Assembly (NCBI GenBank): GCA_009886115.1
Contig: VFJJ01000111.1
Span: 1-64,000, forward strand
Direction: 5' to 3'
DNA from: Actinomycetota bacterium
GTDB lineage: Bacteria > Actinomycetota > Acidimicrobiia > IMCC26256 > VFJJ01
Length of the DNA stretch: 64,000 nucleotides
The notes under the pieces were generated by a model. It searched no databases. It had not been told where the DNA came from and saw only the letters and a list, made by a program, of their open reading frames with translations. The translations under genes and the position numbers were made by a program. This document shows, in pieces, positions 3-60,633 of this stretch (positions are counted from its first letter, which is position 1; each line of letters opens with the position of its first letter).

Positions 3-164
3 GATCTGGCCGACCGCCTCGACGTGTCGCGCCAGACGGTCAACGCCGTCGAGACCGGCCGCTACGACCCCAGCCTCCCCCTTGCCTTCAAGATCGCCGC
101 CGTCTTCGATCAGCCCATCGAGTCGTTGTTCTTCCCGACAGACGACGCAGACCCCCTGGCATAG
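3..164 (+). CDS. XRE-family HTH regulator, C-terminal part (cut by window edge)
   Basis: The window opens inside this gene; the last 53 codons are present and end at TAG. The translated piece starts DLADRLDVSRQTVNAVETGR, the recognition helix and following turn of a Cro/C1-type helix-turn-helix, followed by a helix with IAAVFDQPIESLF. This is the layout of the very short (65-75 residue) YozG-like XRE regulators that consist of little more than the HTH. It should bind DNA as a dimer. The targets cannot be told, because the upstream gene is outside the window. The stretch is too short and too early for the ORF track. Confidence 0.85.
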   Translation, partial: DLADRLDVSRQTVNAVETGRYDPSLPLAFKIAAVFDQPIESLFFPTDDADPLA

Positions 165-255
165 TCCGCTCGGACGTCGTCATACCACGACGGAACCACC
201 CGACAGAAGGACCCACCATGTTCGAGTACCAGGTTTCTCAGGTCGCCGACGGGGC

Positions 256-1014
256 TCAGGTGCTCTGGCGGGCCAGCCAGCCGATGAGCGTGGCGACGGC
301 TCGGGGATCGTGCCGCAGGCGGGGACCACCGGCCTGGACGATGCGCAGCTCGGCATGACCCGCCGCGGCGGCGGCGTACGCCCGGGCGTCGACGATGGGG
401 ACGACCTCGTCGTCGCTGCCGTGCACGATCAGCAACGACCGCGGGGCCAGGCGCGTGGCTGCCGCCAGCGGGTCGAGCGAGGCGATGGCGGCCGCCCAGG
501 CCACCGGATCGGGGGGGAAGGCCGGATCGCGGATGATGCCGATGTTGCGAGCGTGCACGAGGAAGGCCGCGGCATCGCCGACCCAGTGACGCAGCGTCGC
601 CGGCGAGCCCAGGATCGCCACGCCCCTGATGCGCTCGTCGTCGGCCGAGTGCACGACCGCCAGCGCCCCGCCCGTGCTGGCCCCGGCCATCCACACCCCC
701 GACACGTCGTCGCGGGCGGCGAGCATGTCGACGGCCGCGGCCACGTCGGCCCGCCAGCCGTCGATCGAGAAGTTGCCGCCCGAGACGCCCGTCCCCCGGA
801 AGTTGAACGTGAGCACGGCCCAGCCGGTCTCCCTCGTGAGACGCAGGCCCAGCTCCGGGTAGGTGATGCCGGCCGTGGCGGCCCCACGGGGCCCGCTCGG
901 AAACCCGTGGCACAGCACCAGCCCGGGCACCCGGGCGATTCCGGCCGGCCGGCTCAGGTGCGCATCGAGGCTGACGCCGTGGCTGTCGAGGGTGAACGCC
1001 AGGGTCTCGGTCAC
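256..1014 (-). CDS. alpha/beta-fold hydrolase
   Basis: This 252-residue protein has an alpha/beta-hydrolase fold. An HGFPSG oxyanion loop lies near residue 36, the nucleophile elbow GASTG has Ser113, the acid is in HGSDDEVVP (Asp201 or Asp202), and the His of LRHDP is near 235. The size and the FRGTGVSGG loop resemble the COG2945-type esterases with unknown natural substrates. The long ORF of the track reads through to 1575, but that extension is antisense to the divergent neighbour. I start at GTG 1014, where homology begins. An 8-bp duplication (ACCGAGTG twice) sits on the start and leaves a second, out-of-frame GTG just upstream. The gene has no operon partner. Confidence 0.85.
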   Translation of the reverse strand: MTETLAFTLDSHGVSLDAHLSRPAGIARVPGLVLCHGFPSGPRGAATAGITYPELGLRLTRETGWAVLTFNFRGTGVSGGNFSIDGWRADVAAAVDMLAARDDVSGVWMAGASTGGALAVVHSADDERIRGVAILGSPATLRHWVGDAAAFLVHARNIGIIRDPAFPPDPVAWAAAIASLDPLAAATRLAPRSLLIVHGSDDEVVPIVDARAYAAAAAGHAELRIVQAGGPRLRHDPRAVATLIGWLARQST

Positions 1015-1125
1015 TCGGTCACTCGGTCTCCGGGTCGGACGCCGGGATGCTCGGCGCGAAGGGCCCATGTCTCGGGGTCGCCGCGACCGTGCCGCGGGCC
1101 GAGGCGAGGACGTATCCTGCCGCCC

Positions 1126-1596
1126 GTGACCGACCCCGACGCAACCGACACCGAGATCACGGCCGTGCTGGCCCTGTGGCCGTCCGTGATCCACGCCCTC
1201 CAGGCCGGCGAGCAGGTGGCCGTCGTGCTCCCCGAACCGCCGCTCGAGCGGCGCTTCCGGCTCGTGGCCGATGCCGGCGCTGAACGGGCCGAGCTCCTCA
1301 AGGCCCCGTATCGGCGATGGGCCGGCGACCTCGACGTGACCCCGGGCTGGGCCGGCGTCGTCGGCTGGGCGACGATCGACGCCGCCGTGAGCGCCGAACC
1401 GCTCGCCGAGGCCTGCATCTGGCTCGCACCCTTCGTGGTCTCGACCGTCGGTGCAGCGGCCACCGTCGTCGGGCTCCGGGTCGATGCCCCCGACGGCCGT
1501 CCTGTGCTCTCCGACGTGGCCTTCGAGGCTCGACTCAAGAGCCTGATCGGCAAGCTCCCCGAGGGCAGCTGGCACCCCATCGACGACCAGGAGTGA
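1126..1596 (+). CDS. hypothetical protein, 156 aa
   Basis: I do not recognise this family. It is a soluble, acidic-to-neutral protein of 156 residues with no signal peptide. A mildly hydrophobic central segment (LAEACIWLAPFVVSTVGAAATVVGL) could be a buried beta-hairpin rather than a membrane helix. It starts at GTG 1126, 111 bp from the divergent hydrolase, and codon third positions are strongly GC as in neighbours. The upstream part of the 504-residue ORF is antisense noise. The stop codon lies inside the left arm of a large palindrome, so the last codons and the terminator share sequence. Confidence 0.65.
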   Translation: MTDPDATDTEITAVLALWPSVIHALQAGEQVAVVLPEPPLERRFRLVADAGAERAELLKAPYRRWAGDLDVTPGWAGVVGWATIDAAVSAEPLAEACIWLAPFVVSTVGAAATVVGLRVDAPDGRPVLSDVAFEARLKSLIGKLPEGSWHPIDDQE

Positions 1597-1635
1597 GTTG
1601 AGCCCCCTCTGGGGCGCTCAACTCACTCCTGGTCG
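1584..1635. terminator. 20-bp perfect inverted repeat overlapping a stop codon
   Basis: The two 20-bp arms (1584-1603 and 1616-1635) are exact reverse complements around a loop that can pair further (CCCC TCT GGGG). The left arm holds the last codons and the TGA of the upstream gene. There is no T-run, which is common for GC-rich actinobacterial terminators. Transcripts from either side would fold into a very stable hairpin. The terminator role is an inference from position. Confidence 0.6.
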
Positions 1636-4414: not shown

Positions 4415-5233
4415 GTGGACGACACCCCCGCTTCCTTCGGCTCCGTGGCCCCGGACGGGCCCGAACCCGGTTGGTACAACGACCCGGCCGACCCGGCGCG
4501 CCTGCGGTGGTGGGACGGCCGCGCCTGGACCGGCGCCACCGCCGTTCGCGATCACGCGCCGTACGGCCCGTACGGTTCGCACGGTCAGCTCGGTTCGCGT
4601 GGCACGTACGGTCCGTTCGGCACCCGTTCGGCTCCGGAACGCAGCAGCGTCGAGGGCATGCGGTTGCTGGCCCGGCGAGCGCGCCTGGCCCTCGCCGTGG
4701 CGCCGGTGGGGTTCGCCGTGCAGTTCGCCGCGAGCGCGTCGCAGTTTCGCCGGATCGCCGACTCCTGGAACGACCTCGACACGCTCGACGCGTCGAGCTC
4801 GAGCACCGCCGCGTCGGCGGCGTCGCAGCTCGCCGGCGCGGTGATGATCGGCGTCTACGTCGTGTTCCTCATGTGGTTCTTCAACGCTGCCACGGGAGCG
4901 CAGGCGTTGCACATCCCGTCACGGCGCTCACCGGGATGGGCGATCGGCGGCTGGTTCATCCCGATCGTCAACTTGTGGTTTCCGTACCAATCGGCGAAAG
5001 GGCTGCTCCCACCGGGCGACCCGGGCCTGACCCTCGTCAAGCGTTGGTGGGCCTGGTGGATCGCCACCCAGATCATGGGCTTCGTCGTCATCGGCACCGC
5101 GTTCGGACCCCGCTGGCTCGTCGCCGTGGGAACCACCGTCGCGGTGGGCGTGGCGACCGTCGCCGCCTGGGCGGCCCGAGCGATGATCGACAGCGTGGTC
5201 GACGCCCACGCCCGCCTCGCCCGCGGCACCTGA
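4415..5233 (+). CDS. DUF2510-DUF4328 membrane protein
   Basis: The 272-residue protein starts at GTG 4415. Residues 16-40 are a DUF2510 motif (PGWYNDPADPARLRWWDGRAWT), a short Trp-rich module typical of actinobacterial membrane proteins. A Gly/Tyr/Arg-rich linker follows. The rest is a DUF4328-type membrane domain with about four to five hydrophobic helices, including the amphipathic GWFIPIVNLWFPYQSAKGL and WWAWWIATQIMGF. No enzymatic motif is visible. It ends 25 bp before a dispersed palindrome that separates it from the convergent MFS gene. Confidence 0.85.
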   Translation: MDDTPASFGSVAPDGPEPGWYNDPADPARLRWWDGRAWTGATAVRDHAPYGPYGSHGQLGSRGTYGPFGTRSAPERSSVEGMRLLARRARLALAVAPVGFAVQFAASASQFRRIADSWNDLDTLDASSSSTAASAASQLAGAVMIGVYVVFLMWFFNAATGAQALHIPSRRSPGWAIGGWFIPIVNLWFPYQSAKGLLPPGDPGLTLVKRWWAWWIATQIMGFVVIGTAFGPRWLVAVGTTVAVGVATVAAWAARAMIDSVVDAHARLARGT

Positions 5234-5258
5234 CCCGCCCGCACCCCCCACCTCCCCG

Positions 5259-5305
5259 AAATGTGCGCGGAAATGCTCATGGGGTGAGCGTTTCCGCGCA
5301 CATTT
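5259..5305. repeat. dispersed palindrome, copy 1 (convergent-junction element)
   Basis: Arms of 21 bp (5259-5279 and 5285-5305; core AAATGTGCGCGGAAA) pair with one mismatch around a 5-nt loop. The element matches copy 2 at 40268-40314. It lies between two convergent genes, and the minus-strand MFS gene ends inside it: its stop and last ten or so codons are repeat-derived. Probable function is bidirectional termination; the dispersal suggests a REP-like element. Confidence 0.85.
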
Positions 5306-6563
5306 GGGAGTGTCGGGGGGGCATCCCGAAGGTCATGAGCAGCGCGACGGCCTGGATGGCCGCTCCCGAGAGCGCCGTCGTCGTGTACGAGCCCGTGCGG
5401 TCGACGAGCCAGCCCGCCGCTGGGGGGCCGAGCAACGAGCCCACGGCCGAAGCGGTCCCGAGGAGCCCCGCCGCCGAGGCCATGCGCTCGGCACCGAAGT
5501 AGTCGCCGGCCACCGCTGGGAACAGCGTGGGGATCGAGCCGGCCGAGAACGCGAACACTGCGGCGAAGACCGCGAGCGGGCCCAGGGACTCGACCAGGGG
5601 CCACACCGCCAGGGTCAGGCCCATGAGCCCCAAGCTCAAGCGGTACATGGTGAACGCGCCGAAGCGATCGGCCGCGGTCCCCAGGCTGATCCGCCCGGCG
5701 ATCGACGCTGCACCCATCAGCGACACCAGGGCGGCGGCGTTCCCCGTGCTGATGTCGTGCTCCTTGGCATACGGGACGATGAACAGGAACGGGATGAAGT
5801 ACGGGGCCGCTGCGAAGAACGCCGTGCGGTACAGGACCCGAAAGGCCTTGTCGCGCCAGGGCGACGTCTCGTGCGAGCGTCGAGCCGTCGCGCGGCCAGC
5901 GCCGAGCATGAGCGCACCGATCACCAGGAGCGCGAAGTGCGACACGGCGAGGATCTGCAACGAGCCCCTCCAGCCGTGGCCGTCGACGAGGCGTTGCACG
6001 ATGGGCCCGCCCGCGAGGCTGGCGACGCCCGAGCCGGCGGTCGCGAACCCGATCGCCATACCCCGCTTGGCTGTGAAGCGCCTCGACACCACCGAGAGGG
6101 CCGGGAGGATCACGCAGCCCTGAGCGCAGCCCACGATGACCCCGAAGCTCAGGTACAGGTGCGCCATGGTGTCGGCCTGAGCCGAAATGACGAATCCGCC
6201 GGCGAGCAGCACCGCGCCGACCAGCACCACCGGCCGGGCACCGAAGCGCTCCGAGAGACGCCCGGTGATCGCCTGCGAACCCATGAAGAACCCGATGGCG
6301 ATCGACGAGATCCAGGCCACGGCGCCCGTGCCCACGGCGAACTCGGTCTTGATGGGGTTGAACAGCACGGTGAACGTGTACACGGTGCCGAAGACCGGGA
6401 GGTGCACGAGGAACGCGCCCAGGACCACGACCCAGGCCCGTCGCTCGTCTCGTCGAGCGCCAGAGGCGGTGGACGCCACCTCGGACGGGACTTCGGCGGA
6501 GGCGGCCTCTCCGGCTGCGGCGGCAACGATGGAGGTGGCCGCAGCCCGGGAGCGGGATCTCAC
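5277..6563 (-). CDS. MFS transporter
   Basis: A 428-residue major facilitator with about twelve membrane helices. It has the conserved loop SERFGARPVVL after helix 2 and its second-half counterpart TAADRFGAFTMYRL. The pattern is close to monocarboxylate/oxalate-formate-type carriers; the substrate is not inferable. I start at GTG 6563, just after the stop of the upstream esterase gene (8 bp), because the longer ORF is Arg-rich read-through. The natural C-terminus appears to end near MPPRH; the final HSQMCAETLTP is encoded by the dispersed palindrome. Likely cotranscribed with the esterase. Confidence 0.88.
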   Translation of the reverse strand: MRSRSRAAATSIVAAAAGEAASAEVPSEVASTASGARRDERRAWVVVLGAFLVHLPVFGTVYTFTVLFNPIKTEFAVGTGAVAWISSIAIGFFMGSQAITGRLSERFGARPVVLVGAVLLAGGFVISAQADTMAHLYLSFGVIVGCAQGCVILPALSVVSRRFTAKRGMAIGFATAGSGVASLAGGPIVQRLVDGHGWRGSLQILAVSHFALLVIGALMLGAGRATARRSHETSPWRDKAFRVLYRTAFFAAAPYFIPFLFIVPYAKEHDISTGNAAALVSLMGAASIAGRISLGTAADRFGAFTMYRLSLGLMGLTLAVWPLVESLGPLAVFAAVFAFSAGSIPTLFPAVAGDYFGAERMASAAGLLGTASAVGSLLGPPAAGWLVDRTGSYTTTALSGAAIQAVALLMTFGMPPRHSQMCAETLTP

Positions 6564-6570
6564 GCGGTGT

Positions 6571-7782
6571 TCACAGCGCCTGGTAGATCGCCTCGACCAG
6601 GCCGACGGTCCGAGGGTCGCCGTTCGCGCCGGGCTGACCGTCGTCGCCGGGAGCCGGGGCCGCAACGTTGCTCATGCGGTTCATGACATACCCGAAACCC
6701 AGCCCGGCCTCGGGATCTGCGAAGCCGAGCGAGCCGCCCGCTCCGGGATGGCCGAACGAACGGGGCCCGCAGCCCGGCGCCAGCATCGGCGGAAGCGTGA
6801 AGCCGAGGCCGTAGCACGAGTCGAAGATCGTGAGCACCCTGTCGGGGCCCGCCGCTTCGACCGTCGACGCTGCAGCCACCGTGGCCGCGCTCAGCAGGCG
6901 CGGGGTTCCGTCGGCGAGCGGGCCGACGCAGGCGGCGTAGAGCCGGGCCAAGGATCGGGCGTCGCCGGCCCCGGTGGACGAGGGCAGCTCGAGCCTCCGA
7001 TACTCCGGCTCGTTCCAGCGCTCGTCGTAGGTCTCCATGCCCTTGGGGGAGTTGATGACCCGGTGCATCAGCGTTCCCGGACCCATGAGCTGCGCGAGCA
7101 TCGGGAGCAGCTCGGCCGGGGGCGGATCGGGTGGGACGAGCGTCGCGCTGCGATGGTGCTCGGCATCGGGGAGGCCGATCCAGTACGAGAGCCCGAGCGG
7201 TCCGGCGATCTCCTCGGCGAAGAACCGGGCGGGACGGCGGCCGCTCACCCGTCTCACGAGCTCCCCGGTCAACCAGCCATAGGTCCGCATGTGGTAACCG
7301 TGGGCGCTGCCGGGCTCCCAGATCGGCCGTTGCCCAGCCAGACGCTCGACGATCGGGTCCCACGCCTGCATCTCGGCGAGACCGAGCTCGCCGTCGGAGT
7401 CGTCGACGTACGGAAGCCCGCAGCGGTGCGATAGTACGAAGCGGACGGGGATGTCGGCCTTGCCGTTGGCCGCGAACTCGGGCCAGTACCGCGCCACGGG
7501 CGCATCGGGGTCGAGCAGGCCCCGCTCGATGAGGAGGTTGGCGCAGATGGCGGTGACGCCCTTGGTCGACGAGAACGTCGTGACGATGGTGTCGTCGCGC
7601 CAAGGATCGCCCGAGCGCCGGTCGCGCACGCCGCCCCAGAGGTCGATCACGGGGCGCCCGTCGAGGACGAGGCACACCGCAGCGCCGACATCGCCATGGG
7701 CCGCGAAGTTCTCGACGAACGCCTCGCGCACCGCGCTGAACCGGCTGTCACACGTTCCGTCGACGTTCACACCGATGGCCAC
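6571..7782 (-). CDS. serine beta-lactamase-family esterase
   Basis: A class C beta-lactamase-fold hydrolase of 403 residues. The nucleophile motif SxxK is FSSTKG, the Tyr motif is in YHMRTYGWLTGEL, and the third motif is HPGAGGS in place of KTG, as in EstB/LipL-type esterases rather than true beta-lactamases. There is no signal peptide, supporting a cytoplasmic esterase or peptidase. Start GTG 7782 removes 194 residues of antisense extension. It sits 32 bp downstream of the debranching-type enzyme gene and 8 bp upstream of the MFS gene, so a three-gene transcript is likely. Confidence 0.88.
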   Translation of the reverse strand: MAIGVNVDGTCDSRFSAVREAFVENFAAHGDVGAAVCLVLDGRPVIDLWGGVRDRRSGDPWRDDTIVTTFSSTKGVTAICANLLIERGLLDPDAPVARYWPEFAANGKADIPVRFVLSHRCGLPYVDDSDGELGLAEMQAWDPIVERLAGQRPIWEPGSAHGYHMRTYGWLTGELVRRVSGRRPARFFAEEIAGPLGLSYWIGLPDAEHHRSATLVPPDPPPAELLPMLAQLMGPGTLMHRVINSPKGMETYDERWNEPEYRRLELPSSTGAGDARSLARLYAACVGPLADGTPRLLSAATVAAASTVEAAGPDRVLTIFDSCYGLGFTLPPMLAPGCGPRSFGHPGAGGSLGFADPEAGLGFGYVMNRMSNVAAPAPGDDGQPGANGDPRTVGLVEAIYQAL

Positions 7783-39708: not shown

Positions 39709-40296
39709 ATGCTCACCGAGAGGCGGCGACGGGTGCTCGAGGCCGTATCGCCTCGGCGCGGCGTCGCCCGCCGCCACGAGGCTCCGCCCTGGCACGAGCT
39801 CGTCGCCCCGCCCGACGCTGCTCCGCGCCGGCCCGGCCAACCGCTCGATGTCAAGCTGATCGGTCCGCCGTCAGACCCGTCCGACCGGTCCCGCCGGGCG
39901 AGCGGTCTCATCAGCGTGTATCGAGCCGAGGGCCACGAGGGTGCGACGGCCGCGGTCAGCGACTCGTTGCCCCGATTGGCGCCGACACCCGAGATACCGA
40001 AGCCGCTCCCGGCGAGCGTCCGGAACCTCGAGCGCTCCGTGGTGGCGTTGGGGATGCGCACCGAGGCCCTGGCCGTCAGCCTCGACCGGCTCGACGGTTA
40101 CCTCTCGAAGCTGCTCACCGACGTGATGGAAACCCGGAATCGACTGCGGGCCACCGCCACCTCGGCCGTGGTGAGCGAAGCCGAGCACCGCCTCCGCCGC
40201 CTCCACGGCCAGCTCCAGCGGGTCGACAACCATCTGCGCACCACGGATCTCGCCGACCCACACTCCGAAATGTGCGCGGAAATACTCACTGGGTGA
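39709..40296 (+). CDS. hypothetical protein, 195 aa
   Basis: I do not recognise this protein. The first ~90 residues are basic and Pro-rich, without predicted fold. Residues ~98-185 form one long helix or coiled coil ([57 protein letters not shown]). The final [11 protein letters not shown] and the stop codon come from the dispersed palindrome that follows. It is divergent from sufB and convergent with the UPF0182 gene. Third-codon GC supports coding; the start is uncertain. Confidence 0.6.
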
Positions 40297-40314
40297 GCGA
40301 TTCCGCGCACATTT
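40268..40314. repeat. dispersed palindrome, copy 2 (convergent-junction element)
   Basis: Arms 40268-40288 and 40294-40314 (core AAATGTGCGCGGAA) pair with three mismatches around a 5-nt loop. Same size, orientation and relation to a gene 3' end as copy 1 at 5259-5305. Here it closes the rightward hypothetical gene opposite the leftward UPF0182 gene. Confidence 0.85.
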
Positions 40315-40333: not shown

Positions 40334-43300
40334 CTAGGCGCTGATCGTCGACGACGCCGTGGGCTGCGAGCTCGTGGTGGCTCCGCTGGTCGTGGTCGTT
40401 GCACCAGAGCGTGTGGTCGTGCTCGCCGAGCGCGTCGACGACGTGGCCGTCGACGACGTGGCCGATGTGCTCGTGGTGGCTCCGCTGGTCGTCGATGGCG
40501 TCGACGATGCCCCGCCGGAGCGGTTGAGCGCGTCGTTGACGTACGTCCTGGCGAGCTCGATCTGCTGCTGGTACGTGCCGAGATCGCCACCATCGAGTGC
40601 CGTCTGGGCAGCAGCGAAGGCGCCGTCGGCCAAGCGCAACAGCTCCTCCACGGTCTCGTCGCCCGTCGTGACCGGAGGCGGCGGCGGTGAACCGGGCGTC
40701 GGCGGGGGTGCGGGAGGACCGGGCGGCGCCGGGGCGGGCGGCGTCCCGTCAACCACAGGCACGTCGCACGTCTCGATCGAGGCGAACTCGGGGAAGCTCT
40801 TGAGCGCCTCGCACAGCGACGACTTCATCACTGCCCCGTCCTTGTAGAACACGGCAACGAATCGAAGGCCGGGGAACTGGGTCTGGCCTTCCGCCTTGAG
40901 GTACACGGGCCGGATGTACAGGATCGAATTCCCGACCGGCACGAGCTGGAGGTTACCCAACTCGACCGAGGAGCCGTTCCCTGCTTGGTTGAGCAAGGTC
41001 AACGTCTCGGAGATCGCTTCGGTGGTCAGGATCTCGTTGCTGGCCTGGGCGGGGCCGAAAACGCGCGGCGTCGCTGGCATCGTATAGGCGCTGATCTCGC
41101 CGTAGCGCTCAGGATCGGAGCGCGCCACCAAGAACGAGACCAGGTTCTGGATACCCCCGTCCTGAGAGACAGGAACAAGCGGCTGCATGATCACATACTG
41201 CTCATCCGGCTCCCCCGGGAGGCGCGTCAGCAGGTAGTACGGGTCCATCCGGTCGGCGGTATTGCTCTCGATCGAGATCGCCTGGCCACCGGCCGTCACC
41301 TCGGTCAGGGGAACGACCCCGCCACCTCCAACACTCCCGCGGAGCGGACCGGTGTCGGGGTCCTGCGCAATAGACCACTGGTCGGAACGGTTGTAGAAGC
41401 CTGCCGGGTCGGTGACGTGGTACGAGGCGAAGATCCCCGACTGCACGCGGAACAGGTCCTCAGGATAACGGAGGTGCTCATTGAGCCCGGCCGGCATCGA
41501 CTCCGGAGAGGTGAACAGGTCGGGGAAGGCATCACGCCAGGCCCGAATCACGGGGTCGCTCTCGTCTACCAAGTAGAACCGCATCGAGCCGTCGTACGAG
41601 TCGACGGTGATCTTCACCGAGTTGCGAACGTAGTTGAACCGTTGGCTGAGCCCGCTGCCGCTCGGCAATCCTCCTGGCACGACAGCCTGGGCGTACGGAT
41701 AGCTCTCAGTGGTCGTATAAGCATCGAGGACCCACACCACCCGGCCGCTCTCGATGATGACGGGGTAGGGGTCGGCGTCGAGCTCGAGGAAGGGTGCCAG
41801 ATCGCGTACCCGGTCGCGGATGTCTCGCTTGATGAGGATACGCGATTCGTCATCGAGGTCGCCCGACAGGAACAATCGGGCATCGAGGAACCGCAAAGCG
41901 AACGCTGTCCGCCGGAAGATGCTCGAGAGCTCGATCCCTCCGCTCCCGGCGTAAGCCGCGGACCCCGTGGCGGTGTCGAGCCCAGGGTCGAACTCGGGGA
42001 GCGCGGTGTTGACCACCGCGTAGTCGTCGAGACGTTCGCCGTAGTACAGGCCCTTCTGATCGAGGGTGATCTCCGGGACCGAGCTGGTCGGAGGCAGATC
42101 CTTGACGAGGAACTCCGGGAGACCACCGTCAGTGACTGCGTTCGCCGGGGCCAGCGCCACGCCTTGACCGTGCGTGTAGACGAGGTGCCTGTTGACCCAC
42201 GACTGGCTCGGAAGCCGATCGAGGTTGATCTCACGCGCAGCGAGGACGGTCTGGGTCAGCTTGCCGTTGATGACGTATCGGTCGACGTCGAGCTGGGAGA
42301 ACCGGTAGAACGCCTTGACCTGCTGGAGGTTCTGCCAGGTGGCGCCCACGAACTCGGGGTCCCAGAGGCGAGCGTTCTGAAGCGTGACGGAGTTCTCGTC
42401 GATGTCTGACGCGGTGAGATCGGCCGAGTAAGGGAACGGTTGCACGTCGATGTCGGCGATGTCGTACGCCGCGCGCGTCGCGTCGATGTTGTAGGCGATG
42501 TACTCGGCCTCACGAGCCTGTTCGCTGGGCTCGACCTTGAAGCGTTGGTAGAGCTGGGGGTAGACGGTGCCGACGGCCAACGAGACGAAGGCCCACAGGC
42601 CGACCGCGATCACGGGTAGAGCGAAGCCGCGCAGGCGGATGTTGACCAGGAACAAGATCACCGCGGCGATCGATATGACGATCAGCAGGCGCAGCGCCGG
42701 GAGCTGCGCGTTCACGTCGGTGGCGGTGGCCCCGTGCACCGCGCCCCGCGTCGAGGTGGTGAGGGCGAAGCGCTCCAGGTAGTACCCCCAGGCCCGCACC
42801 AGCGCGACGAGGGCGAGCAGCACCGACAGATGCACCTTCACCTGGGGGCTGACCCGTTGGAAGGGGCCCTGCACCCGGATGCCGCCGTTCAGGTAGTGAG
42901 CGACGGCCGTCACGATGAGGATGATGATCAGCGACGCGAAGGTCCAGTCGAACACGACCCGATAGAACGGCAGCTTGAAGACGTAGAAGCCGATGTCGCG
43001 GCCGAACTGCGGGTCGTTGACGCCGAAGTCGCCGCCGTGGCGAAAGAGCAGCCACTTCTCCCAGTGCCCGGTGACGCCCACGCCGGCGATGATCGCGAAC
43101 AGCGCCGACAGACCCAGCCGGAGCCGCCCGGCGTACGGTCCGATGAAGCGCCGGTACCGCTCGGTCACGTCTTCCTGGGCGGTGGGGAGGAACCTCGGTG
43201 CGATCCGATCGGCGATCACGAGGTTGCCGAACAACACAACGAAGAACGCGATCATGAAGATCGCAGCGGGAACGAGTCGGGCCTCGATCGACTGCCGCCA

Positions 43301-43468
43301 CACCGAGGTGAGCCCGACCTCGTCGAACCAGAGATAGTCGGTCCAGAAGCCGGCGATGCCCCGCAAGCTCAACAGCAGCACGATCAGGACGACGACGGCG
43401 ACGACGATCGCCACCCGCGACCTGGTGAAGCGCGGCTGACCCCGTTCGCGTGAGCTCGGTACCCTCAT
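40334..43468 (-). CDS. UPF0182 family membrane protein
   Basis: A 1044-residue protein of the COG1615/UPF0182 family, widespread in Actinobacteria and cyanobacteria and of unknown function. About seven N-terminal membrane helices (residues 18-310) contain the diagnostic YLWFDEVGLTSVWRQ and FGRDIGFYVFKLPFYRVVFDW. A large extracytoplasmic domain follows, with VYTHGQGVALAPANAV. The last ~80 residues are a Ser/Thr/Ala-rich repeat tail that looks disordered and exposed. Single gene, ATG 43468. Confidence 0.95.
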   Translation of the reverse strand: MRVPSSRERGQPRFTRSRVAIVVAVVVLIVLLLSLRGIAGFWTDYLWFDEVGLTSVWRQSIEARLVPAAIFMIAFFVVLFGNLVIADRIAPRFLPTAQEDVTERYRRFIGPYAGRLRLGLSALFAIIAGVGVTGHWEKWLLFRHGGDFGVNDPQFGRDIGFYVFKLPFYRVVFDWTFASLIIILIVTAVAHYLNGGIRVQGPFQRVSPQVKVHLSVLLALVALVRAWGYYLERFALTTSTRGAVHGATATDVNAQLPALRLLIVISIAAVILFLVNIRLRGFALPVIAVGLWAFVSLAVGTVYPQLYQRFKVEPSEQAREAEYIAYNIDATRAAYDIADIDVQPFPYSADLTASDIDENSVTLQNARLWDPEFVGATWQNLQQVKAFYRFSQLDVDRYVINGKLTQTVLAAREINLDRLPSQSWVNRHLVYTHGQGVALAPANAVTDGGLPEFLVKDLPPTSSVPEITLDQKGLYYGERLDDYAVVNTALPEFDPGLDTATGSAAYAGSGGIELSSIFRRTAFALRFLDARLFLSGDLDDESRILIKRDIRDRVRDLAPFLELDADPYPVIIESGRVVWVLDAYTTTESYPYAQAVVPGGLPSGSGLSQRFNYVRNSVKITVDSYDGSMRFYLVDESDPVIRAWRDAFPDLFTSPESMPAGLNEHLRYPEDLFRVQSGIFASYHVTDPAGFYNRSDQWSIAQDPDTGPLRGSVGGGGVVPLTEVTAGGQAISIESNTADRMDPYYLLTRLPGEPDEQYVIMQPLVPVSQDGGIQNLVSFLVARSDPERYGEISAYTMPATPRVFGPAQASNEILTTEAISETLTLLNQAGNGSSVELGNLQLVPVGNSILYIRPVYLKAEGQTQFPGLRFVAVFYKDGAVMKSSLCEALKSFPEFASIETCDVPVVDGTPPAPAPPGPPAPPPTPGSPPPPPVTTGDETVEELLRLADGAFAAAQTALDGGDLGTYQQQIELARTYVNDALNRSGGASSTPSTTSGATTSTSATSSTATSSTRSASTTTRSGATTTTSGATTSSQPTASSTISA

Positions 43469-58514: not shown

Positions 58515-58603
58515 GAGGGTCCCTTTCGAAGACGATGGGATCAGCGTAGTGCCGGCCCGACCCACTCTCTCATCGGCCAGCTGAAGCGAGAGTGAAGGAC
58601 CGG

Positions 58604-59611
58604 TCAGCTTCCGATGCGCCTGCGGGCCTCGGCCAGCGGCTCAAGATCGTCGAGCGCCGTGACCGAGAAGGGGACCGGCCCAGGGCAGGCGATCAGCGTC
58701 GACACGCCCAGGGCCTCCCACTGCACGAGCTGCTCGGCCACCTCCTCGACCGTGCCCACGAGCCGTCCGCCGCCGCGCCAGTCGTCGACCGAGAGCCCGT
58801 CGAGCATTCCGTTGGGCGCCGTGGCCTGCATGCGGCGCCACCGCGCCTCGAGATCGGCCCGGTCCTCCCCGACCACGGTGTAGAGCCCCAGGGTCAACGT
58901 GACCGTCGCCGGGTCGCGCTCAACGGCATCGCACGCTCGGTGCAGTACATCGAGCCGACCCCGATAGGCCTCCGGGGTCCAGGCCCAGACCGTGTTCCAA
59001 CCGTCGGCGACCTCGGCGACGAGGCGCAGGAGCCGATCGCCCTTGCCACCGACGTGGATGGGTGGGCCCGGCGCTTGCGTGGGCCCCGGCAGCAGGCGGG
59101 CACCGTCGAGACGGTGGTAGCGGCCGTCGGCGCTCACCGGATGCCCGTCGGACGCGAAGAGCGCATGGAGGATCTCGACCGCCTCTCGCAGCCGGGCCAG
59201 CCGGACCCCGGGCGGCGGCATCTCCATCCCGATGGCCCGGTACTCGGGCTCGTGGTACCCGGCGCCCATGCCGACCTCGAGCCGTCCTCCGCTCAGACGG
59301 TCGATCGTGGCCAAGGCCCCGGCCAACACGCCGATCGGCCGGAGGGCCTCGCAGATGACGAGCGTCCCGAGACGCGGTCCGGTCAGCTCGCGAGCCAACG
59401 CACCGAGGGCGGTGAGCACCTCGAAGGGCGTGTACTCAGCGGCCCCCCCGCCGTATTTCTCGATGTCCCAGATCAGGTGGTCGGACAGCCACAGCGATCC
59501 GTAGCCGAGCTCCGCGGCCCGGCGAGCGTGCGCGACGACGGTCTCCCAGCGCAAGGGGTCGTCGCCGGGAACCGAGAATCCGTACTGCGGCAGGGCCAGC
59601 CCGAGCTCCAT
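58604..59611 (-). CDS. LLM-class F420-dependent oxidoreductase
   Basis: 335 residues, TIM-barrel luciferase-like family. N-terminal LGLALPQYGFSV, SLWLSDHLIW, GGRLEVGMGAGYHEPEYRA and PPIHVGGKGDRLLRLVAEVADGWN are conserved. F420 or FMN as cofactor is likely. The substrate is unknown. ATG 59611 is divergent from the formimidoyltransferase-like gene, with just 18 bp between starts, so their promoters must overlap. Confidence 0.92.
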   Translation of the reverse strand: MELGLALPQYGFSVPGDDPLRWETVVAHARRAAELGYGSLWLSDHLIWDIEKYGGGAAEYTPFEVLTALGALARELTGPRLGTLVICEALRPIGVLAGALATIDRLSGGRLEVGMGAGYHEPEYRAIGMEMPPPGVRLARLREAVEILHALFASDGHPVSADGRYHRLDGARLLPGPTQAPGPPIHVGGKGDRLLRLVAEVADGWNTVWAWTPEAYRGRLDVLHRACDAVERDPATVTLTLGLYTVVGEDRADLEARWRRMQATAPNGMLDGLSVDDWRGGGRLVGTVEEVAEQLVQWEALGVSTLIACPGPVPFSVTALDDLEPLAEARRRIGS

Positions 59612-59629
59612 GCGGCCAGACTACGAGGC

Positions 59630-60625
59630 GTGCTCGAATGCGTCGCCAACATCTCCGAAGGGCGCGACCCGATCGTGCTCGACGCCCTCGGCGCCGCCGT
59701 CGCCGATGTGCTGCTCGACGTGCACACCGACGTCGATCACCATCGCTCGGTGTTCACGATGGCCGGCGCCGACGCGGAGATCGTCGAAGCGGCCATGGCG
59801 CTGTGCCTGCGGGCGCTCGAGCTGATCGACCTGCGCGCGCACGCCGGTGTGCATCCACGCCTCGGCGCCGTCGACGTGGTCCCGTTCGTGGCGCTCGAGA
59901 ACGACGGGCGTCCTGCTCGTTCGCCCCACGCCCAGGAACGGGCGATCGCCGCGGCTCGCCGATTCTGCGAACGAATCGGCGCGGAAGCGGGAATTCCGGC
60001 GTTCCTCTACGACCTGGCCGACCCGCTCGGCCGCAGCCTGCCCAGCATTCGCCGCGACGCATTCACCACGACCACCAGGACCACCACGACGAGCACGACC
60101 ACCACGACCAGCACGGCCCGCGAGCCCGACGCCGGCCCGTCCCGGCCCCATCCCACCTTCGGCGCCGTGGCCGTCGGAGCCCGCCCGCCGCTCGTGGCCG
60201 TCAACTGCGTGCTCGCCGGCTCACTCGCCGCCGATGCAGCCGCTGGTGCCGCCACCGGGGCCGGACCGCTCGACATCGCCCGCGCGATCGCCCGCGCGCT
60301 TCGTGAGCGCGACGGTGGGCTCCCGGGCGTGCGGGCCCTGGGCGTGGCGCTGGCGTCACTCGACCGGGCCCAGGTGTCGATGAACCTGGTCGATCTCGAC
60401 GCCACGGGATTGGAGGCCGCCTACGCCGCCGTGGAGTCACGCGCCCGGGCGCTCGGCACCTCGGTGGAGGACGTGGAGCTCGTGGGCCTGGTCCCCCGCG
60501 AGGCCTGGTTGGCCACGACGCTCGCATTCAGGGCCCGCTGGTTTCCGAGCGCCGAACCGACGATCGAAGCCGCCGTCGCATCGCAACTGTCAGCGTGGAG
60601 GGCCGGATACGGCCCGTCACGCTGA
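59630..60625 (+). CDS. glutamate formimidoyltransferase-like protein
   Basis: 331 residues. LECVANISEGRD at the N-terminus and the catalytic HAGVHPRLGAVDVVPF (His in HPRxGAxD) place it in the FTCD N-domain family (formiminoglutamate to tetrahydrofolate transfer, histidine degradation). The C-domain includes FGAVAVGARPPLVAVNCVLAG and VRALGVALA. Between them, where the folate-loop normally sits, is a Thr-rich stretch (FTTTTRTTTTSTTTTTST). GTG 59630; a close GAGG upstream is poorly spaced. The stop lies in the right arm of a 16-bp palindrome. Confidence 0.88.
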   Translation: MLECVANISEGRDPIVLDALGAAVADVLLDVHTDVDHHRSVFTMAGADAEIVEAAMALCLRALELIDLRAHAGVHPRLGAVDVVPFVALENDGRPARSPHAQERAIAAARRFCERIGAEAGIPAFLYDLADPLGRSLPSIRRDAFTTTTRTTTTSTTTTTSTAREPDAGPSRPHPTFGAVAVGARPPLVAVNCVLAGSLAADAAAGAATGAGPLDIARAIARALRERDGGLPGVRALGVALASLDRAQVSMNLVDLDATGLEAAYAAVESRARALGTSVEDVELVGLVPREAWLATTLAFRARWFPSAEPTIEAAVASQLSAWRAGYGPSR

Positions 60626-60633
60626 CAGTTGCG
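60582..60633. terminator. 16-bp perfect inverted repeat spanning a gene end
   Basis: CGCAACTGTCAGCGTG (60582-60597) pairs exactly with 60618-60633. The inner part (GGGCCGGATACGGCCC) forms a second stem. The formimidoyltransferase stop lies in the right arm and the last 15 codons are in the element. It separates the gene from the convergent whiB gene, whose stop is 12 bp further. Confidence 0.7.

Follow-up and report, generated by a model that had tools for sequence, protein, structure and literature searches.

We analysed a window of 64,000 nucleotides (the whole stretch, part of contig C97) from a genome of 5.45 Mb, assembled in 224 contigs and 95.6% complete. A 47-bp palindrome, with 22-nt arms and a 3-nt loop, is present at 5259-5305 and again at 40268-40314, the two copies that the earlier note had described. 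Four matches to the arms were observed in the window versus 0.47 expected from shuffles; within the window the arms were found only as pairs, and an uptake sequence was rejected on this ground. Integron attC sites were likewise set aside, judged by the sequence only. The solo palindromes in the window number four and were assigned to three of the genome's nuclease-gene palindrome families. The palindromes and the genes around them are:

1584..1635, no strand: solo palindrome of a third family (CGACCAGGAGTGAGTTGAG...), like the pair of the C61 nuclease gene, arms compared by eye
4415..5233, + strand: DUF4328 gene, ending 25 nt ahead of the 5259-5305 palindrome
5259..5305, no strand: class A solo palindrome (47 bp; arms of 22 nt, loop of 3 nt)
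5277..6665, - strand: MFS transporter gene (PF07690), stop within the 5259-5305 palindrome
39709..40296, + strand: hypothetical ORF, stop within the 40268-40314 palindrome, start uncertain
40268..40314, no strand: solo palindrome, class A, the window's other copy (RNA fold z -8.7)
40334..43468, - strand: UPF0182 gene (PF03699), ending 19 nt from the 40268-40314 palindrome
58592..60625, + strand: formiminotransferase-domain ORF (PF07837, PF02971), stop within the 60582-60633 palindrome
60582..60633, no strand: solo palindrome of the C131 family (AACTGTCAGCGTG...CACGCTGACAGTT), which flanks a nuclease gene on contig C131
60645..61001, - strand: whiB-type gene (PF02467), converging on the 60582-60633 palindrome

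Both class A copies lie between convergent genes, as had been proposed, with the DUF4328 and MFS genes around the first and the hypothetical ORF and the UPF0182 gene around the second. The frames ending inside the element were also recovered from the sequence, the MFS protein terminating in HSQMCAETLTP and the hypothetical ORF, which is without a Pfam match, in an 11-residue end. The start codon of the MFS gene is uncertain, codon usage favouring 5277-6428. C-rich and G-rich flanks lengthen the predicted hairpin of 5259-5305 to 5244-5320, and the hairpin exhibits an RNA fold of -61 kcal/mol with a z of -10.3. Separately, an ORF at 82-1596 (+), without a Pfam match and backed by codon usage only in its last part, terminates within the 1584-1635 palindrome.

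Copies of the class A palindrome and its variants were counted over the whole genome, a check that the earlier note had proposed. The perfect 9-nt core was present in 25 copies, with 0 for the reversed-pattern control, and the 25 copies obtained from a pattern with a free centre of 6-36 nt all have the same 19-nt centre. A genome-wide pattern search allowing up to 3 mismatches gave 32 copies, and a covariance model, the E-values of which are rough, gave at least 75 places, mostly less than 50 nt from a stop codon. After a search of 623 kb of flanking sequence, 78 copies were listed, the last few of them weak. The copies fall into three sequence classes of equal length, A (AAATGTGCGCGGAAATGCTCAC), B (AAATTTGTGCAGAAATCGTCGCC) and C (GTTCTGTGTGCAGAAATCGTCGC), plus hybrids. 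Both arms change together between the classes, with a covariation score of 0.273 compared to 0.144 for shuffled and 0.06-0.12 for slid alignments; the rows comprise both strands of every copy, and the counts are therefore inflated. No Rfam family reached its gathering score for the palindrome. The class A core was found 0 times in 40 relatives of the same order, the closest rank at which the search for relatives had any to offer, and the combined class A/B pattern 0 times in GTDB r220 contigs.

The outer 7 nt of the class A/B/C copies are of interchangeable types (AAATTTG, AAATGTG, GTTCTGTG and ATCTGTG), and hybrids carrying one each of two types occur. Contigs C18, C21, C31, C93, C124, C129 and C151 start about 100 nt or less from a copy, as if the assembly breaks at hairpins. 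Short tandem repeats with units rich in C or G adjoin the element at three loci (L044, L096 and L081).

With gene calls made by our own codon-usage caller, 35 copies lie at convergent, 30 at tandem and 3 at divergent junctions, and 10 at contig edges. The junctions free of copies were 63 convergent, 286 tandem and 100 divergent, a distribution that differs from that of the copy-bearing junctions (chi-square p 5e-13), and for 66 of 76 copies a stop codon is no more than 50 nt away, compared to 21% for random intergenic placement. The dispersed extragenic copies are hence biased to gene 3' ends, a bias also found in REP/RAYT systems. The earlier note had suggested an element that writes the same C-terminal tag onto unrelated genes. 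This reading was rejected, as only 4 gene ends among the 78 copies stop inside the element, three of them at one and the same position, namely in locus L037 and the two window copies. Since class A closes one frame of three on each strand and class B closes none, the shared tag is a by-product that arises incidentally when a gene enters a class A copy in the closed frame. REP palindromes are also known to supply stop codons (PMC3733652).

On contig C178 (locus L114), two copies about 1 kb apart enclose a single ORF. G090, a genome from another order of the class, has a homologous ORF between two copies of a distinct palindrome having the same core, TGCAGAA-N19-TTCTGCA. Both ORFs match AbiEi_4 in the N-terminal part and MTES_1575/DUF559 in the C-terminal part, some of the matches being below the curated cut-off. 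PF04480 alone recovers only 2 of the 7 nuclease genes of the genome, and a protein search was therefore needed. It gave matches at 8 places, 7 of which are intact two-domain genes; the eighth (L174) lacks both the nuclease part and a palindrome pair. All 7 intact AbiEi-DUF559 genes are flanked on both sides by their own family of palindromes of about 45-55 bp:

C178 nuclease gene: class B-like palindrome pair
C70 nuclease gene: palindrome pair GAGCTGGCAGCGC
C74 nuclease gene: palindrome pair GTGGTCGTGGAATCGATC
C196 nuclease gene: palindrome pair GTTCTTTGTGGCCAGG
C131 nuclease gene: palindrome pair CAACTGTCAGCGTGG
C61 nuclease gene: palindrome pair CGACCAAGAGTGAGT
C76 nuclease gene: palindrome pair TTCTTCGCGATTTCG

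Considering the class B-like pair beside it, the C178 gene is the best candidate partner of class A. The C131 family occupies 36 places, including the 2 beside its gene (control 0), and the copies examined are at 9 convergent, 5 tandem and 0 divergent junctions. For 4 of the 7 families, no solo copy was found within the 623 kb examined. Some nuclease genes (L189, L190, L192, L198 and L204) have an array of 2-3 palindromes on one side. On contig C52, a putative enoyl-CoA hydratase-like gene (L296, 1501-2578), with no nuclease match, lies between two C131-family copies.

The nuclease protein has about 300 residues and combines an AbiEi-type DNA-binding region with a C-terminal EDxHD (DUF559/Vsr-like) nuclease domain. 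The structure of a relative (L212) was modelled with a 29-sequence alignment to a mean pLDDT of 89.5. In Foldseek, the model matched the AbiEi antitoxin 6y8q (target TM 0.65), the AbiEi-like fold spanning about the first 200 residues, and the homing endonuclease I-Bth0305I 3r3p (target TM 0.77). A profile search gave 3hrl (3e-7), 3r3p (7e-5) and, weakly, Vsr. The active-site residues are conserved as D in 52/52, E in 52/52, the second D in 42/52 and H in 49/52 sequences. The protein thus presents the EDxHD-type fold and active-site residues of homing endonucleases together with the AbiEi-type DNA-binding domain of the type IV toxin-antitoxin AbiE, and PADLOC models call all eight proteins AbiEi. 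A DUF559 gene has been placed in the EDxHD homing endonuclease family (PMC9403480). Inverted repeats are bound by AbiEi proteins (PMC7319586).

The comparison of occupied and empty sites, also suggested beforehand, was possible at one orthologous junction between a putative response-regulator gene and a putative cystathionine gamma-synthase-like gene, both read from the sequences; across species it is empty, carries a solo palindrome or carries the palindrome-gene-palindrome unit. In the one family surveyed, the junction is empty (44-66 nt) in G252, G123, G084 and G117, contains a solo or decayed palindrome in G255, G256 and G257, and a solo palindrome from another family in G223. The full element, of 1.05-1.07 kb, is present in G090, G207, G068 and G203; further full elements were found in G108 and, split over two contigs, in G258. 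Full, empty and solo states occur together in one genus (g64), and full, solo and relic states in another (g131). The palindromes of occupied junctions differ between sites and match within each pair, and no second gene was found between the palindromes in the loci read. The nuclease reading frame often runs a few bases into the palindrome downstream of it before stopping, which is the effect behind the shared tag of the window. No target-site duplication was discernible at the g64 junction, where the alignment is loose. The presence and absence at this junction is compatible with homing conversion of a cut site. In the full elements read, the palindromes on both sides are whole; the disruption of the target by insertion that is characteristic of homing was not seen.

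Using the protein alignment, matches were obtained in 68 of 119 genomes sampled from the class, many of the genomes compared being metagenome assemblies. With about 350 nt taken on each side of the gene and a common repeat scoring 30 bits or more required, flanking pairs were present at 7/7 loci in the genome itself, 23/28 in the class sample and 26/35 named GTDB loci, compared to 0/19, 1/80 and 1/99 for cross-paired flanks. After removal of duplicates, 46 of 60 unique loci in other genomes have pairs and 14 have none at this threshold; distant-flank controls gave 3/52 (1.1-1.5 kb away) and 2/52 (far versus near upstream). The extracted palindrome units have a median length of 51 (quartiles 47-55), and the loci with related genes belong mostly to Acidimicrobiia and other Actinomycetota. 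Protein identity and palindrome similarity are correlated (Mantel r 0.349; null maximum 0.145, 0/2000 permutations), the signal being confined to protein pairs of more than 40% identity, below which the palindromes are mostly unrelated. The co-variation shows joint descent and turnover, and is by itself no proof of recognition. G005 (L154-L160) has 7 palindromes with CGTTTTGGGTGCAGAA arms, which fall into two subtypes and lie mostly between convergent genes.

The nuclease genes and the palindromes are associated, their pairing is gene-specific, solo copies of some families are dispersed, and one site is occupied or empty depending on the genome. We consider it likely that a selfish mobile element of two parts is at work, similar to a REPtron, with the palindromes as its DNA part and a homing-type nuclease replacing the RAYT transposase. 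The full element would be the palindrome-gene-palindrome unit of about 1.05 kb. The protein would bind its own palindrome, where the nuclease domain would cut, and repair from a palindrome-gene-palindrome copy would carry the gene into solo palindromes, while recombination between the two palindromes would leave a solo palindrome behind. Several points count against this reading. With both palindromes left whole, the donor should be cut by its own nuclease too, which sets the element apart from classical homing genes; 14 of the 60 loci have no pair at the threshold, four families have no solo copy in the 623 kb examined, and no target-site duplication was discernible. The least certain step is the passage of solo palindromes to palindrome-free sites, for which we can only guess at hairpin copying by the same enzyme. 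The copies at 5259-5305 and 40268-40314 would be solo copies of the family to which the C178 gene is assigned as candidate partner. Of the mobile or homing 3'-end element that the earlier note had envisaged, mobility and the 3'-end bias are supported, and homing is perhaps involved.

The same note had raised a terminator cassette, and the strong hairpins on both strands, placed just after stop codons and often between convergent genes, would suit bidirectional terminators or mRNA 3'-end protectors that belong to the host and have spread through recombination, the nuclease genes being uninvolved neighbours. Yet a terminator needs neither a fixed length nor a family-specific sequence, the flanks read show G-rich sequence instead of a T-run after the stem, and neither gene-specific pairs around one gene family nor empty sites are predicted. 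We therefore regard this explanation as unlikely, and a side role of the palindromes as terminators as possible. Autoregulation of AbiEi proteins through inverted-repeat binding (PMC7319586, PMC3985639) would fit palindromes that are operators only, the upstream copy serving to repress the gene and the dispersed copies being regulatory sites; however, the copies are at gene 3' ends, only 3/68 at divergent promoters, the other copy of the pair sits behind the gene, and the nuclease active site is conserved, which makes this account improbable.

Equally improbable, in our opinion, is an ordinary insertion sequence with palindromic ends whose miniature derivatives the palindromes would be; the nuclease gene would then be cargo or use old palindromes as landing sites. 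Many insertion sequences target palindromes, the solo palindromes resemble very short MITEs, and their route to new sites lacks explanation, but in the loci read a single gene, the nuclease, lies between the palindromes, and the pairing is gene-specific. Classical REP elements, which a RAYT (HUH, Y1) transposase mobilises, are likewise extragenic palindromes in dispersed positions, and their partner gene lies between two of them (PMC2817692); the earlier note had proposed a search for such a transposase. No Y1_Tnp (PF01797) match was found in the 95.6%-complete genome, whereas five control genomes match, and GTAG or GTGG was present in the first 6 nt of only 1/54 palindromes in a crude test; this origin is hardly credible.

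The two-part element that we favour resembles several known systems in part. Like the REP/REPIN-RAYT REPtrons (PMC2817692, PMC3733652), it has dispersed extragenic palindromes, mostly behind genes, and a partner gene between two palindromes; partner and palindrome co-vary, and the ends can supply stop codons. Unlike in REPtrons, whose partner is a HUH Y1 transposase, the partner here is an AbiEi-type domain with an EDxHD nuclease, and the palindromes are symmetric, of about 45-55 bp and without a GT(A/G)G head. The C-terminal fold and active-site residues are those of EDxHD homing endonucleases such as I-Bth0305I (PMC9403480, citing Taylor et al. 2011). In contrast to that type, the gene is free-standing between two intact palindromes, includes an AbiEi-type DNA-binding region, is outside introns and inteins in the loci read and is accompanied by many solo palindromes. 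The fold of about the first 200 residues is shared with type IV toxin-antitoxin AbiEi antitoxins (PMC7319586, PMC3985639), from which the present proteins differ by the nuclease domain, the palindromes closely bordering the gene and, in the loci read, no toxin gene between them. No paper linking DUF559/AbiEi genes to palindromes was found in the open-access library searched; subscription papers were mostly outside the search, and an earlier description is possible.

On balance, we are inclined to see here a novel type of mobile element that occurs widely across the class, in which a homing-type EDxHD nuclease with an AbiEi-type DNA-binding domain recognises, moves through and disperses its own palindrome of about 50 bp. 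If so, it would be convergent with REP/RAYT, yet made from unrelated parts, and many genes labelled as AbiEi antitoxins would be mobility genes of the element. The gene family with AbiEi-domain and DUF559, common in the class (68 of 119 genomes), would likewise be a mobile-element nuclease more than an antitoxin. This reading would account for the origin of dispersed palindromes despite the lack of a RAYT match in the genome. Di Nocera et al. (PMC3733652) did not settle the enzyme behind the CGTC REPs, and that question keeps the general issue live, nothing here equating CGTC REPs with these palindromes. The idea lends itself to direct tests by comparing genes, palindromes and empty sites.
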